Part shown: positions 14,413-19,739 of the stretch, piece after piece
Layout of the letters: every line of letters starts with the position of its first letter
Numbering within the stretch: position 1 is the stretch's first letter
NCBI GenBank assembly: GCA_017962925.1
Contig: JAGCUK010000035.1
Location: 1 to 40,300, forward strand
Reading direction: 5' to 3'
Length of the DNA stretch: 40,300 nt
Origin: Bacteroidales bacterium
Lineage (GTDB): Bacteria > Bacteroidota > Bacteroidia > Bacteroidales > UBA932
Translations under genes and position numbers: made by a program
The notes under the pieces: model-generated
The model's database searches: none
Told to the model about the DNA's origin: nothing
Seen by the model: the letters and a program-made list of their open reading frames with translations, nothing else

Positions 14413-15042
14413 ATGAAGAAATTATTATTGTTTACCGCTGCACTGGCGATGCTGTTTGCCGGATGCTGCAATGGAAATAAGGCACAGGATGCCACCGAAG
14501 CGGCGATTAATACCATCATGAATCGCAAGAGCGTGCGGAGTTACACCGACCAGAAACTCACGGAGCAGCAGATTGAAACATTGCTTAAGGCAGCAATGGC
14601 CGCTCCCAGCGCAATCAACATCCAGCCATGGAGTTTCGTGGTGATCGATGACGATGCTGTGAAACAGGAAATCTGGGGTGAAGGATTCCAGTCCAAGATG
14701 TTTATCAGTGCCCCGGTAGTGATTGTTGTCTGTGGAGATACCAAGACAATGCGCAAGCCTTCCGGCAAGCCTGACGCCGAACCGGAAGAAGTCGACAATA
14801 TCTTCTGGGATCAGGACTGCTATGCCGCCACTGAAAACCTGCTGCTGGCAGCCGAAGCAATGGGCCTTGGCGCCGTCTGGACTGCAATTTATCCCACCGA
14901 AAGGATGGCCCGCGTCTGCGAGAAGTTAGGCCTTCCTGCTAACGTGAAGCCCCTCTGCGCCGTCCCAGTCGGCTATCCTGCCCGCGACGACCAGCCCAAA
15001 GACAAGTGGAAACCCGAAAAGATCCACCGCAACCGCTGGTAG
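14413..15042 (+). CDS. Nitroreductase-family lipoprotein
   Basis: The 209-residue product begins with a signal peptide and lipobox (LFAGC, acylated Cys about 18), so it is probably an exported lipoprotein. The mature part is a flavin-dependent nitroreductase-like domain: RKSVRSYTDQKLT, AAPSAINIQPW (flavin-contacting region), AAEAMGLGAVW and CAVPVGYPA near the end. Family members reduce nitro groups, quinones or other acceptors with NAD(P)H. The substrate cannot be read from the sequence, and the cofactor source for an exported form is unclear. It starts 10 bases after folD and may be co-transcribed with it. A strong hairpin follows at 15087-15122. Confidence 0.88.
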   Translation: MKKLLLFTAALAMLFAGCCNGNKAQDATEAAINTIMNRKSVRSYTDQKLTEQQIETLLKAAMAAPSAINIQPWSFVVIDDDAVKQEIWGEGFQSKMFISAPVVIVVCGDTKTMRKPSGKPDAEPEEVDNIFWDQDCYAATENLLLAAEAMGLGAVWTAIYPTERMARVCEKLGLPANVKPLCAVPVGYPARDDQPKDKWKPEKIHRNRW

Positions 15043-15086
15043 TTGTTTCTCGTTCCTAGTAATAGGCTGGTAATCAGTCATTTAAA

Positions 15087-15122
15087 CAAAATGGGTCACC
15101 CAAAAACGGGCAACCCATTTTG
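15087..15122. terminator. Hairpin after the folD-nitroreductase end
   Basis: CAAAATGGGT and ACCCATTTTG form a perfect 10-bp stem. Inside it CCC and GGG form a further short stem around AAAAAC. Because the arms carry A and T runs, the structure could end transcription from both directions, which suits its place between convergent genes. Confidence 0.7.
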
Positions 15123-15188
15123 CGTATAATTGTGATATTCAGCGACTTGCCTGGAACGCCCTTCCTGGCTGAAGGATGAATAACTATT

Positions 15189-15203
15189 TCATTTTGTATT
15201 AAA
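15189..15203. repeat. 15-base direct repeat, copy 1
   Basis: TCATTTTGTATTAAA occurs here and again at 16572-16586. Each copy lies at the 3' end of a leftward AT-rich gene; here it includes the stop codon. Confidence 0.5.
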
Positions 15204-15750
15204 GGTTTATTTCTACGCGGACTCCTGAAGCAGAGAACTCTGAAAGGATAAAGGATTGTTCTTTTGGCATAATCGGTACGAAACCTTCCGCATCAAGTCC
15301 TTTTTTATTAATGAATTTAATAAGTTTATCGGGAATAACGTGGTTTTCCAATGAGAAGAGGACCTGCCTATGGGACGCTTTTCCTTGGAAAGTAGATTTG
15401 TACTTCCCCATAAAATAGTTAGTGTCTGGGCTTATTTCAAATGTTCCAAAAAAACGCCTAAGTTCAGGGGAGTCATTACAAAAACGCATATCCCCAAAAG
15501 GAATTTCAACCCTGCAAACCTCATATAATCCTGCAGGAACATTATCAATCACAGCATTGTCTGACATTCCATTAAGGCACTTGGACTTGTAAATCTCGTT
15601 TGTCTCGGTATTCTCAAGGAAGAGGACAATACCATGTCCTGACATTCCCGAAGCTCGGGCTGATGCCGAAATAGTGATCATAGATTCTTGGGCAGAACAA
15701 AGTAGCGGAAACAAGAAACAGATGCAGATAAGTAAAATGTAGTTTCTCAT
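15199..15750 (-). CDS. Secreted protein of unknown function
   Basis: The 183-residue product has an N-terminal signal peptide (MRNYILLICICFLFPLLCSA, likely cleaved near the following QES). I see no lipobox. The start is the ATG complement at 15748-15750; the TTG three codons earlier is rejected. The mature part contains short beta-strand-like stretches (GHGIVLFLENTETNEIY, VPAGLYEVCRVEIPFGDM) that resemble an immunoglobulin-like or carboxypeptidase-regulatory fold, but I do not recognise a family. Base composition is clearly more AT-rich than the purine cluster, suggesting separate origin. It is convergent with the nitroreductase gene and lies in the repeat-rich segment upstream of tRNA-His. 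Confidence 0.65.
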   Translation of the reverse strand: MRNYILLICICFLFPLLCSAQESMITISASARASGMSGHGIVLFLENTETNEIYKSKCLNGMSDNAVIDNVPAGLYEVCRVEIPFGDMRFCNDSPELRRFFGTFEISPDTNYFMGKYKSTFQGKASHRQVLFSLENHVIPDKLIKFINKKGLDAEGFVPIMPKEQSFILSEFSASGVRVEINL

Positions 15751-15834
15751 AATAAACAATTGATTTAGTGTCTTGGCGATGTTGGAAAGATACCCCTACG
15801 GACAATGCAAAAACCATTCCGATTGGGTCTCTCT

Positions 15835-16185
15835 TCAGAAATGCTGCAGTACCAAACGTCCCTCAACGTTTCGGTAATAGGAGCGGACATTCTCGACCTT
15901 GCCATGGCGAAAACGCTTGTATGCCTTCACCTCGACAAGTTTCGGAGCCTTGAACTCTAGGTACAGGCTCACACGAATGCGAAATGCCTTTCTATTCATG
16001 TCATAAGATTTATAGTCCCGTAAAGGATTTCGGGAGGTGTAAGAAGCACCCCTGCGGCTCTCTTTTATAGGAAAAAGGCATTTCAGTGAGGGCTGAAATA
16101 CCTTATATTCCGAGACTATAACCACCGAAGTGGTAAAAATCTTACGACATTGCAAGATAGAAACATTTTTTAGCTTAGCTATCAT
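15835..16185 (-). CDS. Small conserved-looking hypothetical protein
   Basis: The open frame gives 116 residues from the ATG complement at 16183-16185; a shorter 54-residue product from 15999 (MNRKAFRIRVS...) is also possible. The C-terminal half is very basic and aromatic (LEFKAPKLVEVKAYKRFRHGK). I have a vague impression of similar small proteins in Bacteroides genomes but cannot name a family. There is no signal peptide and no domain I recognise. It lies between two AT-rich leftward genes and next to the repeat cluster, so it could be a remnant of a mobile or repetitive element. Confidence that it is expressed as protein is low. Confidence 0.35.
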   Translation of the reverse strand: MIAKLKNVSILQCRKIFTTSVVIVSEYKVFQPSLKCLFPIKESRRGASYTSRNPLRDYKSYDMNRKAFRIRVSLYLEFKAPKLVEVKAYKRFRHGKVENVRSYYRNVEGRLVLQHF

Positions 16186-16253
16186 ATTTCTTCTTTTTTT
16201 ATTCGCTTTTTTGCCTTGGCAAATAGGCAGTGTTGCCATTTCACGACTGAAGT

Positions 16254-16391
16254 GGGCAAGGTCTAATTCTAGGGCTGGGACCTTGCCCGGTTTTATGGCT
16301 TCTAGGCATTTCTAGTGGGCAAGGTGTCGCATCTAAAAATCGACCTTGCCCATTTTTATTATGAATGAGCCGTCAGGCGAACCGCCGGTCC
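16254..16391. repeat. Composite hairpin repeat, copy a
   Basis: There are two hairpins with the same arms. GGGCAAGGTC/GACCTTGCCC occupies 16254-16288, and TGGGCAAGGT/ACCTTGCCCA occupies 16316-16352, followed by TTTTTATT. Next comes a module at 16364-16391 beginning AATGAGCC-GTCA-GGCGAAC and ending CGGTCC. Within the module GCC and GGC can pair around the loop GTCA. The layout is the same as copies b and c, although the hairpin arms differ. Confidence 0.75.
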
Positions 16392-16408
16392 TGGTATGGT
16401 AGCCGGAG

Positions 16409-16548
16409 TGCGGTTAACGTCCCGTTTTCTTTGACGTTACCCGCAAAAAAGGCCGAAAATGCGGCTAACCTCCGTTTTTCCGGGACGTTACCCGCATCTG
16501 GGTTCCAATGAGCGCTTCAGCGCGAACGGCGGAGGGCGGTCCGAAGGA
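16409..16548. repeat. Composite hairpin repeat, copy b
   Basis: The first hairpin is TGCGGTTAACGTC / GACGTTACCCGCA at 16409-16445 (one mismatch). The second is TGCGGCTAACCTC / GACGTTACCCGCA at 16460-16496 (two mismatches). The 3' arms of the two hairpins are identical. The 42-base module at 16507-16548 contains GCGC-TTCA-GCGC and the segment GGAGGGCGGTCCGAAGGA. It differs from the module of copy c at one position. Confidence 0.75.
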
Positions 16549-16571
16549 AACTGTCTTGATGTATCACCTTA

Positions 16572-16586
16572 TCATTTTGTATTAAA
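16572..16586. repeat. 15-base direct repeat, copy 2
   Basis: TCATTTTGTATTAAA is identical to 15189-15203. It lies 6 bases beyond the stop codon of the leftward lipoprotein gene at 16593-17222. Confidence 0.5.
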
Positions 16587-16592
16587 AAGCAG

Positions 16593-17222
16593 TTATTCGT
16601 TCCTTGGGAGATTCAGTTCCTTCATATATTGTTCCCTCTCAGGGAAAGTCGCGTCGGCATTGTCCTTTTTGGGATTGTACTCCAAGAACATCTTGTTGCT
16701 ATACGGAATGCAGTATTCCATCGTTTTGGTGTTTTCAGCAAGTTCTGCATCTGACAAAGCATCATAGTAGATGTGATAATAATAGCCACACTCCTTGTTC
16801 TCCCAAAACAGCACCTTAGCAAATTGACTGCCACTTTTCATCAATTCTGCTGACAAGCAGTTTACACTTCGGAGTTTTGAGATAACAGTATCCAACTCAT
16901 CTTGCGTCAGACCCACCAAAGGCATCAGATTGTCAAAATCCTTTTGTTGAGGATTGTTAGTCCCAAGCCACATAAATTTATAGACAAAGAACTGTGACAC
17001 CCCCGTTTGGTCCAATACGAGTTGGATTCCACAATGGTCATTGAGAGCATCTGCCGTGAAAGCAAGTGCATCCGCAATACCGTCTTTGTTATCCTCATAG
17101 TTCTTGACCATCTTCTCTATCGAAAACACTTGATTATCGGTGCTCGATACTTTCTTTGTTGGCCCGCAGCCGCAAAAAAGGAGCAAAACGGTTACGGCAA
17201 AAACTGATAAACACTGTTTCAT
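16593..17222 (-). CDS. Lipoprotein of unknown function
   Basis: The 209-residue product starts MKQCLSVFAV and has a signal peptide ending in a lipobox-like LFCGC (Cys about 19), so it is predicted to be a membrane-anchored lipoprotein. The longer frame from 17270 is rejected because its start is not ATG and it would bury the signal peptide. The mature part is mixed alpha/beta by eye, with stretches such as FSIEKMVKNYEDNKDG, PLVGLTQDELDTVISKL and ECGYYYHIYYDALSDAEL. No family is recognised. It is AT-rich compared with the flanking housekeeping genes. Repeat copies a and b lie downstream and a related partial hairpin pair lies upstream, so it sits within the repeat cluster. Confidence 0.7.
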   Translation of the reverse strand: MKQCLSVFAVTVLLLFCGCGPTKKVSSTDNQVFSIEKMVKNYEDNKDGIADALAFTADALNDHCGIQLVLDQTGVSQFFVYKFMWLGTNNPQQKDFDNLMPLVGLTQDELDTVISKLRSVNCLSAELMKSGSQFAKVLFWENKECGYYYHIYYDALSDAELAENTKTMEYCIPYSNKMFLEYNPKKDNADATFPEREQYMKELNLPRNE

Positions 17223-17314
17223 TATTATGTTTTTTTTGATGTGACAATAATCCCCCGTCGGATGCAGCAATAATCGTTCCTATACGGCTTGTCCATGTCT
17301 TTTCCGCAAGATCT

Positions 17315-17366
17315 GGGTGTTGACGTTACCCGTGGTGTTGTTGACGTCCGGTTTTTCAGGACGTCA
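17315..17366. repeat. Partial hairpin pair related to copy b
   Basis: GACGTTACCCG (17322-17332) repeats the arm of copy b. A perfect 8-bp hairpin, TGACGTCC/GGACGTCA, follows at 17342-17366 with the loop GGTTTTTCA. No clear downstream module is visible. The whole stretch 17223-17568 holds no gene that I can support. Confidence 0.45.
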
Positions 17367-17568
17367 GCAGCACTTGAACGACAAAGGTATTCGTGGAAAC
17401 GTTGTGTCTAACATACTGATTTACAATGCTTTACTGAAACAGGTCGGTTGATTTTGCTGATCTGTTTTGGGTAAGTGGTTGATTATCAAGCATATAACCA
17501 CAACACCACCATGGAGCTAGTTGGGCTGGAGGCGTGGAGACATGGCAGGGAAATGATTTCGATTGAGT

Positions 17569-17696
17569 TTTGTTCCGAAAACAGGCCTTAAACGGGAACA
17601 AACGTTTGAATTTGAAGAGTTCGTTCCGGAAAAGCGGCATATTCCGGAACAAAAAATGAGCGCTTCAGCGCGAACTGCGGAGGGCGGTCCGAAGGA
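17569..17696. repeat. Composite hairpin repeat, copy c
   Basis: The first hairpin is TTTGTTCC/GGAACAAA (17569-17602). The second is a perfect GTTCCGGAA/TTCCGGAAC (17623-17650). The module at 17655-17696 is the same 42 bases as in copy b except one position (G in b, T in c). Beyond the module, 17697-17770 holds more GC-rich palindromes, including AGGGGC/GCCCCT and AGAGCTGC/GCAGCTCT. Confidence 0.75.
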
Positions 17697-17770
17697 CAAA
17701 GCCCGGGAGCCGCGGGGTACGTTAGGGGCAGAGCCCCTGACAAGACAGGGGAAGAGCTGCTCGCAGCTCT

Positions 17771-17821
17771 GCACCCAAAGCAAAAGACGAGGCCGTTTGG
17801 ACCTCGTCTTGCTTTGGGTGC
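17771..17821 (-). terminator. Long hairpin overlapping the tRNA-His 3' end
   Basis: Arms at 17771-17792 and 17802-17821 pair over about 20 bp with a two-base bulge. Read leftward, the core AAGACGAGG/CCTCGTCTT followed by TTGCTTT works as an intrinsic terminator for tRNA-His. The outer stem continues into the last bases of the tRNA acceptor strand. Confidence 0.65.
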
Positions 17822-17890
17822 GATGTGGGGCTCGAACCCACGACAACCAGAACCACAATCTGGTGCTCTACCAACTGAACTAATCGCACC
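17817..17890 (-). tRNA. tRNA-His (GTG anticodon)
   Basis: Read leftward, the sequence folds as a complete tRNA. The acceptor stem is GTGCGAT/ATCGCAC, the D arm lies around AGTTGGTAGAGC, and the anticodon arm is CCAGA-TTGTGGT-TCTGG with anticodon GTG. The T arm is GTGGG-TTCGAGC-CCCAC. The extra 5' G typical of tRNA-His (G-1, at 17890) faces the discriminator C73 (17817). CCA is not encoded and must be added. A consensus promoter lies just upstream. Confidence 0.95.
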
Positions 17891-17903
17891 GTGTTAGGGA
17901 CTG

Positions 17904-17933
17904 CAAAGGTACGAAAAAATATTAACCCTGCAA
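17904..17933 (-). promoter_or_regulatory. Promoter of tRNA-His
   Basis: Read leftward, TTG (17933-17931), exactly 19 bases, then TACCTTTG (17911-17904) give a full match to the Bacteroidetes TTG-N19-TAnnTTTG pattern. The box ends 13 bases before the mature tRNA 5' end. Confidence 0.8.
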
Positions 17934-17943
17934 GTTTTATTTG

Positions 17944-17951
17944 TATATTTG
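17944..17951 (+). promoter_or_regulatory. Candidate -7 box for the 17958 gene
   Basis: TATATTTG matches TAnnTTTG, but the -33 region reads TTA instead of TTG. The start codon follows only six bases later, so a transcript from here would have almost no leader. Confidence 0.5.
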
Positions 17952-17957
17952 TGGTGT

Positions 17958-19739
17958 ATGGCAAAAGAAATAAAGTTTTCCCTCGTTTACAGGGATATGT
18001 GGCAGTCCACAGGCAAGTATCAGCCCAGGGTTGATCAGCTTGTAAGGGTTGCCCCCGCAATCATAGATATGGGATGCTTCGACCGCGTGGAAACCAATGG
18101 CGGGGCATTCGAGCAGGTAAATCTCCTCTACGGAGAGAACCCCAACATCTCCGTCCGACAGTGGACCGCGCCTTTCCATAAGGCAGGCATACAGACCCAC
18201 ATGCTCGAGCGCGGCCTAAACGCCCTCCGCATGAATCCGGTCCCTGCTGACGTGCGTGAACTGATGTTCAAGGTGAAGAAGGCTCAGGGCACCGACATCG
18301 CCCGCTCCTTCTGCGGCCTGAACGACCATCGCAACCTCAAACTCTCCGTCGAATACGCCAAGAAAGCAGGGATGATCTCCCAGGCAGCGCTGTCCATCAC
18401 CCACTCCCCGGTACACACCGTGGAATACTACATGGGCGTGGTGGATCATCTGGTGGAATACGGCACCGATGAAATCTGCCTCAAAGACATGGCAGGCATC
18501 GGGCGCCCGACCTTCCTCGCGCAACTGGTATCTGAAATCAAGAAGAAATACCCGCACATCAAGGTACAGTATCATGGGCACAGCGGCCCCGGCTTCAGCC
18601 CCGCATCCATGCTGGAAGTGGCTCGCGCCGGCGCCGACTACCTCGACGTGGCCGTGGAACCCCTCTCCTGGGGCAAGGTCCATCCGGACGTAATCACCAT
18701 CCGCGAAATGCTCAAGGCCGACGGCTTCCTGGTGAAAGATATTAACATGGATGCCTACATGCAGGTCCGTGCCCTCACGCAGGAGTTCATCGACGACTTC
18801 CTGGGCTACTGGATCAATCCTTCCAACGCCCAGATGACCTCGCTGCTGGTAGGCTGCGGCCTCCCCGGCGGAATGATGGGCTCGATGATGGCAGACCTCA
18901 AACCCTTCCTCGGCGCAGTCAATGCGGCGGAAAGGGCGGCAGGCCGTCCGGACATGACCCTGGATACCCTGATGGTGAAGCTCTTCGAAGAAGTGCAGTA
19001 CGTATGGCCGCGCCTGGGCTATCCGCCCCTCGTGACCCCGTTCAGCCAGTACGTTAAGAACACCGCCCTGATGAACCTGCTGAACGTCATCAAGGGCAAT
19101 CCTCGCTGGACCACCATCGACAAGGACACCTGGGGAATGATTCTGGGCAAGATGGGCAAGCTTCCCGGCCCCCTCGCTCCCGAAATTATCGAGCTCGCGA
19201 AGGAAAAGGGCATGGAGTTCTACGACGGCAATCCGCAGGACATGTATCCGGACGAACTTTCCAAGTTCCGTCAGATGATGAAAGAGGAAGGATGGGACGA
19301 GGGCCCCGACCAGGAGGAACTGTTCGAGTTCGCCATGCACGAAAGGCAGTATCGCGACTTCCGCTCAGGCCTGGCCAAGCAGCGCTTCAATACCGAACTG
19401 GAAGACTTCCGCGCCAAGGCTGGAGCTCCCATCAAGCTGGTACGCCCGGTAGTGGAAACCCCCGAATTCAGCGCCGAAGAATACGCACAGAAGTATCCTC
19501 ACGCCGTTCCTTTGCAGGCTCCAGTGAAGGGTCAGTTGCTTTGGCAGGTGGATGTGGAGGATGATTCCGCGGCGCCCGTCGCCGGCACAGCCGTCAAGGC
19601 AGGTGAGCCAGTAGGATACGTGCAGACTTATTACGGCCGCGAAGAAATCCCCGCAGCCCGCGACGGACGCATAGTGGCAGTTACGGGCAAGCAGGGCAAG
19701 AATGTTGTAAAAGGTGAAATCGTAGCATACGTAGAATAA
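17958..19739 (+). CDS. Carboxyltransferase (oxaloacetate decarboxylase alpha / pyruvate carboxylase B-like)
   Basis: The 593-residue product has an N-terminal HMGL-like carboxyltransferase barrel: YRDMWQS near the N terminus (family RDxxQS, metal ligand Asp), ICLKDMAG with the lysine that is normally carbamylated, and QYHGHSG with the metal-binding HxH. A conserved carboxylase domain follows. The C-terminal part looks like a biotinyl domain (APVKGQLL...GEIVAYVE). However, the usual AMKM hairpin is replaced by TYYGREEIP, with no lysine in the turn, so it cannot be biotinylated at the normal site. The family decarboxylates oxaloacetate or carboxylates pyruvate with a separate biotin carboxylase. 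The role here is uncertain. The ATG at 17958 is chosen over a TTG nine bases upstream. Confidence 0.8.
   Translation: MAKEIKFSLVYRDMWQSTGKYQPRVDQLVRVAPAIIDMGCFDRVETNGGAFEQVNLLYGENPNISVRQWTAPFHKAGIQTHMLERGLNALRMNPVPADVRELMFKVKKAQGTDIARSFCGLNDHRNLKLSVEYAKKAGMISQAALSITHSPVHTVEYYMGVVDHLVEYGTDEICLKDMAGIGRPTFLAQLVSEIKKKYPHIKVQYHGHSGPGFSPASMLEVARAGADYLDVAVEPLSWGKVHPDVITIREMLKADGFLVKDINMDAYMQVRALTQEFIDDFLGYWINPSNAQMTSLLVGCGLPGGMMGSMMADLKPFLGAVNAAERAAGRPDMTLDTLMVKLFEEVQYVWPRLGYPPLVTPFSQYVKNTALMNLLNVIKGNPRWTTIDKDTWGMILGKMGKLPGPLAPEIIELAKEKGMEFYDGNPQDMYPDELSKFRQMMKEEGWDEGPDQEELFEFAMHERQYRDFRSGLAKQRFNTELEDFRAKAGAPIKLVRPVVETPEFSAEEYAQKYPHAVPLQAPVKGQLLWQVDVEDDSAAPVAGTAVKAGEPVGYVQTYYGREEIPAARDGRIVAVTGKQGKNVVKGEIVAYVE

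Follow-up and report, generated by a model that had tools for sequence, protein, structure and literature searches.

Paired hairpins of a Bacteroidales genome as probable untagged REPIN-like elements of RAYT-like genes

Three hairpin doublets in the window

The window, by which we mean the whole 40.3-kb stretch of DNA analysed, lies on contig C84 of a genome of 2.03 Mb and 84% completeness (G000), for which all copy numbers are lower bounds. On its minus strand, two small ORFs without a Pfam match (15199-15759 and 16593-17270) and a tRNA-His gene (17816-17889) are located. The window contains three pairs of hairpins (doublets a, b and c). A detector looking for an 8-mer, its reverse complement, the same 8-mer and its reverse complement again (w..w'..w..w', at most one mismatch each) returns exactly these three in the whole window and none in any of eight dinucleotide shuffles of it, in agreement with a first-pass annotation of this DNA, which had described paired hairpins with shared arms at these very places. 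Doublet a (16253-16352) consists of hairpins at 16254-16288 and 16317-16351 with arms GGGCAAGGT/ACCTTGCCC and a hairpin-to-hairpin distance of 63 nt; doublet b (16409-16496) has arms TGCGGTTAACGTCC / GGACGTTACCCGCA and doublet c (17569-17653) GTTCCG / CGGGAAC followed by GTTCCGG / CCGGAAC, the hairpins of both being 51 nt apart. No strand is assigned to any of the three. Within each doublet both hairpins have their arms in common, while a, b and c have no arm sequence in common with one another, as had also been noticed before.

Folded as single-stranded DNA on both strands and compared with 200 shuffles, doublets a (z -7.1/-5.7) and b (z -3.6/-5.5) are better than all shuffles on either strand; doublet c folds more weakly (z -1.7/-2.1), 12 and 4 of the 200 shuffles being equally good. 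As one long hairpin, a folds on the plus strand and b on both strands; c folds into two hairpins and no single long one. Known RNA families do not account for the doublets: at the gathering threshold Rfam finds the tRNA-His alone, and at E<=10 on positions 15000-18000 it adds four matches, all at chance level. The earlier observation that no transposase is visible holds for contig C84 at E<=0.001: Pfam reveals no transposase among six nearby window proteins, and no C84 match at this threshold is listed in two whole-genome searches for RAYT-like proteins.

Two further features of the neighbourhood should be mentioned. Upstream of the ORF at 16593-17270, positions 17320-17373 hold GACGTTACCCG and a GACGTCC/GGACGTC hairpin resembling the b-type arms (70% to the b unit), perhaps a worn remnant. 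The 3' flanks of the two minus-strand ORFs (15175-15203 and 16558-16586) are similar to each other, 83% over 29 nt, and end in CATTTTGTATTAAA.

The adjoining module is a separate repeat

A conserved, GC-rich module, on the plus strand in all three cases, follows each doublet in the window. The shorter module that had been described after a is present (16364-16395, TGAGCCGTCAGGCGAACCGCCGGTCC); it is, in place of a reduced form, a second subtype of the module repeat, also seen elsewhere, with close copies on C66 and C55 and in the form TGAGCCGNCAGGCGAAYCGCCGGTCC. Of the long subtype, b is followed by the 5' part only (16507-16548) and c by a complete copy (17655 to approximately 17745), which points toward the 3' side of the tRNA-His gene. 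The 42 nt shared by the b and c modules (17655-17696 in c) contain one difference, just as reported earlier, and no such match is expected by chance; position 17696, formerly taken as the end of the module of c, falls inside the repeat, which continues to about 17745. The complete long module is a repeat of about 90 nt, TGAGCGCNNCAGCGCGAAC..CGGGGTACNTTAGGGGCNNNGCCCCTAA. In G000, matches to the long module are found at seven places.

The first-pass annotation had regarded the conserved module as coupled to variable arms, and one could accordingly imagine a composite mobile unit in which both move together. A module indeed follows the doublet at all three places in the window, on C66 and at the ortholog of c in a related species (G045). 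In addition, a 181-nt piece of the window (16316-16496), comprising half of a, the short module and all of b, recurs at G000:C66:27474-27654 with 91% identity, followed at each of the two places by a module of a different subtype; C66, however, may be a segmental copy. Against coupling, five of the seven long-module places lack a doublet: in the 3-kb loci of these five, all outside the window, none was detected apart from one A-rich match about 400 nt from the C55 module, which we count as chance. Other doublets, in turn, occur without a module, as no module match was obtained on C3, C62, C52 and C91, where a- or b-type doublets reside, and in 18 of 20 c-type loci, several of them overlapping, the module is seen in two only, the window and its G045 ortholog. 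By the criterion that the first-pass annotation had itself set (no joint occurrence of arms and module elsewhere), the proposed coupling is largely refuted, C66 being the exception, and we regard a composite unit as very unlikely; the module is a repeat separate from the doublets.

The module shows a preference for tRNA genes. Six of the seven complete modules in G000 point toward the 3' side of a tRNA gene or, in one case, the tmRNA gene (C11 Thr, C55 Ser, C66 Pro, C69 tmRNA, C70 Met, C84 His), the one on C30 being the sole complete copy without such a neighbour; on C78 and C94 the module 3' end alone is found, with no tRNA in the locus. In G045, a tRNA (Ser, Pro or His) accompanies three of six places with the module 3' end, and of the remaining three one lies at a contig end; the single module place of another genome, G057, has a tRNA as well. 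This adjacency was judged on copies from two patterns, and of 61 genus genomes three contain the module 3' end. A function as terminator between converging transcripts is possible, as is a repeat that seeks tRNA flanks. Sharing of such flanks may by itself suffice to explain why doublet and module meet in the window.

Each arm type belongs to a dispersed family with its own RAYT-like gene

The arms had been considered specific to each copy, which they are not: every arm type represents a dispersed family shared with one RAYT-like gene. Arms of type a form seven distinct hairpins at four places in G000 (C52, C66, C84, C91), and the a-type doublet on C91 starts 5 nt past the stop codon of the RAYT-like gene C91:9793-10650. 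Type b occurs as doublets on C3, C62, C66 and C84, the one on C3 preceding the RAYT-like gene C3:26879-27745 by about 110 nt; elsewhere, the search for b arms gave five single matches with two mismatches versus three in the control. For type c, eight hairpins are distributed over C18, C26, C37, C52, C82 and C84, and c-type doublets flank the RAYT-like gene G000:C37:21081-21923 on both sides. The c pattern is present in 4 of 101 genus genomes. G045 contains nine such hairpins, including dispersed copies, and a gene (G045:C5:112359-113204) whose product is 86% identical to that of the C37 gene and which again has c doublets on both sides.

At E<=1e-20, the window's own genome holds seven RAYT-like genes, all of which have doublets (six by the detector, the one on C3 by eye). 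The arms of these seven look different by inspection, and a scripted comparison, possible for five of them, revealed no shared arm; dispersal is demonstrated for families a, b and c. Several separate enzyme-and-hairpin pairs thus seem to coexist in one genome.

The c-type doublet on C18 (L161, G000:C18:14246-14330), which begins immediately ahead of the start codon of a 334-aa ORF on the minus strand, allows a comparison of orthologous sites. In G045 (L381, contig C21; 77% identity across the site) a doublet of similar size is found, with other arms (GCTGTCC..GGACAGC, as judged by eye on the alignment). In G085 (L380, contig C11) the c-type hairpin is kept, and an additional ORF lies beside it; a RAYT gene considered at this position was rejected, the extra ORF encoding 439 aa. 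Neither of these two orthologs provides a clean empty site. The comparison fits repeated insertion into one site as well as replacement of one family by another.

Identity of the RAYT-like proteins

The proteins encoded beside the doublets are approximately 280-310 aa long; their core reads, for example, MSNHVHF, and one tyrosine is invariant. In alignment A2, S52, N53, H54 and H56 as well as Y114 are invariant, corresponding to an HxH motif plus Tyr, and Y114 presumably is the catalytic residue. All 35 relatives analysed match PF01797 at E<=0.5 and the NCBIfam model REP_Tyr_transpos at E<=0.001. Individual scores are modest: above the PF01797 cut-off of 23 bits is the C91 protein (28.3 bits), below it are those of C87 (22.9), C3 (19.4) and C37 (16.2), and the C37, C3:17595, C35 and C74 proteins, searched alone, all fall under the cut-off; the G045 relative of the C37 protein has no Pfam match. 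None reaches the REP_Tyr_transpos cut-off of 80, the four matching proteins out of six scoring 27.9-38.9 bits and four further ones 15.0-25.9 (C37: 15; the first member of A2: 31.7), and the C91 protein obtained no NCBIfam match. With our own family profile, built from an alignment including C3, C87 and C91, E values are 2e-139 for C3, 2e-91 for C91, 5e-46 for C37 and 5e-50 for the G045 relative of C37. It is this profile match that places the c-type proteins in the family, their Pfam and NCBIfam scores being poor.

From an alignment of 35 members taken from named MAGs, a structure was predicted with AlphaFold (pLDDT 86.8) and compared with solved structures by Foldseek. The best solved match is 4er8 (E 9.5e-5, TM-score 0.58 by target length), a REP-associated tyrosine transposase bound to a REP hairpin. 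Searching PDB by sequence gave nothing for one protein and a single irrelevant weak match (E 0.17) for the alignment. Motif and predicted fold together assign the proteins to the RAYT/TnpAREP superfamily (HuH Y1), outside the REP_Tyr_transpos equivalog.

Some minor matches were noted. A library of defence systems gave for the 35 members one weak match to a GajA model (E 8e-4), which was disregarded. The C35 protein (L073) has a sub-cut-off match to the Pfam family Proteasome (20.8 vs 22.4 bits), taken for chance. G000 also contains two other Y1-like genes (L068 on C86 and L070 on C78) with DHxH and YLYNNP motifs; by eye, both have a direct repeat with a hairpin on either side, unlike the doublets, and may represent another RAYT or an IS-like subclass.

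Doublets beside RAYT-like genes across the genus

The genus is represented here by 101 genomes, a subset of a larger group; the family profile has matches at E<=1e-20 in 87 of them, as many as 11 in one genome. The 100 top-ranked profile-matched loci (not a random draw) yielded 96 genes, four loci having no ORF by motif. A same-arm doublet is present within 600 nt of 64 of these genes, upstream in 41, downstream in 48 and on both sides in 25; for the remaining 32 the strict detector finds none. The controls gave far lower counts, namely 1 of 288 shuffled flank sets, none of the 96 coding sequences of the genes themselves and 5 of 71 control windows of 1.2 kb, from which a G045 locus (L009) holding the ortholog of c had been left out; some of the remaining control matches look like doublets of other families. 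A looser detector tolerating two mismatches per arm was dropped, since it fires in coding DNA on L143. Some RAYT-like genes of the genus (L238, L246, L253, L258) have long tandem arrays of same-arm hairpins instead of a single doublet.

Over PF01797 matches of any subclass, doublets are not common. When the first 75 loci (about 3 kb) with any such match are taken, 19 have a doublet, compared with 6 of 40 control loci, and doublets are concentrated in loci encoding SNHxH proteins (12 of 17, against 7 of 58 other PF01797 loci). The low overall count is the reason why the analysis was narrowed to the SNHxH family, a choice made by protein motif and not by flanks. Among 80 loci of named MAGs, 79 from Bacteroidales or Bacteroidia and one from Clostridia, with a ruminant named in many, a doublet was found at 29 of the 38 that were checked.

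These counts bear on the view that the doublets serve to terminate transcription or to stabilise RNA 3' ends and are repetitive by chance. Several doublets do lie behind tRNA genes (a tRNA-Arg on C62, tRNA-Leu and tRNA-Arg in G045), and REPs are described as able to act in this way (PMC6006769). Such a function, however, needs no identity of arms between the two hairpins or with the doublets of transposase genes, and doublets occur upstream of the genes (41 of 96) as well as downstream (48 of 96). The statement of the first-pass annotation that the repeats are unlike an ordinary terminator holds, and we give the terminator reading hardly any weight. Least probable of all is that the doublets are regulatory sites (operators or RNA leaders) of each RAYT gene with the dispersed copies as escaped duplicates, since, although doublets accompany the genes on one side or on both and vary together with the protein, copies are dispersed on other contigs, some beside tRNA genes, and the predicted fold is that of a REP nuclease/transposase.

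Anatomy of the doublets and turnover of their arms

Among 72 doublets between 70 and 130 nt long, the median is 87 nt; the arms measure 9 nt, the loops about 10 and 12 and the spacer 24 nt. GGCC occurs in the spacer of 23 of them, against 4.7 on shuffling of the spacer. The GT[AG]G tag is absent, being found directly 5' of the hairpin foot in 5 of 288 feet (5.7 expected). A small excess is seen for [CT]GTC (22 of 288 feet, 7.5 expected), a frequency too low for a general tag. The two palindromes are more alike in inverted order in 25 doublets, in direct order in 36 and tied in 11, it being hard to orient palindromic arms.

Arm sequence was compared with protein identity for those 55 of the 64 doublet genes that have an exact 8-mer arm pair. 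An arm 7-mer is common to 5 of 5 gene pairs at 75% protein identity or more, to 23 of 37 at 60-75%, 16 of 184 at 50-60%, 2 of 376 at 40-50% and 0 of 101 at 30-40%, and to none of the 782 pairs below 30% or without a match. Where a gene has exact arms on both sides, upstream and downstream arms agree in 18 of 19 cases. The pairs are not independent, as 36 of the 46 arm-sharing ones fall inside a single clade of nine a-type genes (VVSNHxH), in which arms are kept down to about 58% protein identity. Without the pairs of this clade, the proportions are 2 of 2 (75% or more), 1 of 15 (60-75%), 5 of 173 (50-60%) and 2 of 376 (40-50%), so that most genes of 60-75% identity already differ in their arms. 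One clade is therefore conservative, and elsewhere arms turn over fast. Since arms are also shared by descent, the covariation represents co-inheritance plus turnover, which is consistent with specific recognition and no proof of it. Neither the dependence within the a-type clade nor the weak scores of the C37 protein change the best reading, as both the flank counts and the profile match remain valid.

Interpretation

Doublets a, b and c are small non-coding palindrome doublets of about 85-100 nt belonging to three families. Their layout and dispersal, the association of a single arm family with each gene and the way in which arms vary with the protein are direct observations. We infer that the cognate RAYT recognises, cuts and moves them in trans, and consider it highly probable that the three are REPIN-like non-autonomous elements without a tag, mobilised in this manner. 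The suggestion of a non-autonomous mobile element, voiced when the locus was first described, suits the paired hairpins well. In the proposed mechanism, a RAYT would bind its cognate hairpins as single strands, its single tyrosine would cut at the hairpin feet, and copies of the doublet would be inserted in trans into intergenic sites. Doublets of several RAYTs would gather in the same intergenic spots, and the module, with its preference for the 3' flank of tRNA and tmRNA genes, would have met the doublets by sharing that space.

A wider reading, to which we give slightly less than an even chance, sees in these proteins an undescribed RAYT subclass of uncultured, probably rumen-type Bacteroidales that radiated into many co-resident transposase-hairpin pairs, each protein recoding its arms without a fixed tag while the layout, often with a GGCC-centred spacer, is kept. 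At insertion sites used in common, one family's doublets may give way to those of another. The general question behind this is how RAYTs come to recognise their own REPs and how new pairs originate. One genome usually holds few RAYT-REP pairs. The genus considered here offers several untagged pairs per genome, with arm identity dropping sharply below 75% protein identity, one clade excepted; such a series is material for locating the residues that determine specificity by comparison and for tests with short oligonucleotides. If the wider reading is true, the genus would hold a natural series in which protein-DNA-hairpin recognition has been recoded. The doublets would also explain puzzling intergenic hairpins in Bacteroidales MAGs, which can be mistaken for RNA families or composite transposons.

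Comparison with known systems

A literature search covering titles and the openings of abstracts gave among the matches listed no report of such doublets in rumen Bacteroidales. Two described subclasses come near. Subclass 2.6, which corresponds to RAYT group 5 of Bertels, is known from Bacteroidetes, and its genes are described as flanked by untagged 'atypical secondary structures' with copies in the genome (PMC6006769). As far as that description goes, the likeness extends to the phylum, an NH[LIV]H-type HuH motif, a Ser-Ser motif after the core and the untagged flanking structures with copies. The proteins investigated here differ in a HuH-Tyr distance of about 58 aa versus a median of 82, in a Tyr motif AYVxMN versus YIH[QN]NP and in PWG versus WQ (PMC6006769), as well as in an extended helical region at the C-terminus (total length about 290 aa). 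The doublets may be of the same sort as the atypical structures of subclass 2.6, which we compare by their published description. With subclass 2.1 (TIRYT), as described, the proteins share NHVH, an ordinary HuH-Tyr spacing, a conserved Ser motif and a long C-terminal extension (PMC6006769); the account of 2.1 in the same paper reports no REP-like sequences, whereas doublets are frequent here. The domains Bac_DnaA_C, HTH_23 and HTH_28 were not detected in 35 members (E<=0.5, HMMER filters), and one weak match to HTH_26 (E 0.21) was obtained. Judged against the published descriptions, the proteins do not agree with 2.6 in spacing, Tyr motif and WQ, and they match no HTH model named for 2.1; we therefore place them at the level of the TnpAREP superfamily.

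CGTC-tagged REPs resemble the doublets in their paired palindromes and in having Bacteroidetes among the reported phyla; according to the description available, however, no RAYT gene is flanked by CGTC units (PMC3733652), and in the doublets [CT]GTC feet (22 of 288) are too few for a general tag. The pairing of a RAYT/TnpAREP with its own REP family is established, as far as described in the papers cited (PMC6006769, PMC8266576, PMC3733652), and the groups studied so far are described as relying in part on the GTAG tag (PMC8266576). The REPIN/BIME and RAYT systems of E. coli and Pseudomonas remain the closest counterpart. Both have palindrome doublets of about 90 nt, dispersal, a HuH/Y1 fold (here predicted), one repeat family per transposase gene and a gene flanked by its own repeats. 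The doublets differ in that the GT[AG]G foot is lacking, the two palindromes show no clear inversion relative to each other and copy numbers are low (at least seven hairpins for a, at least eight for c and at least four doublets for b). Up to 11 matches to the protein family per genome, and arms that mostly differ between genes 50-60% identical, set this system further apart. Although they lack the GTAG tag, the doublets probably work like REPINs.
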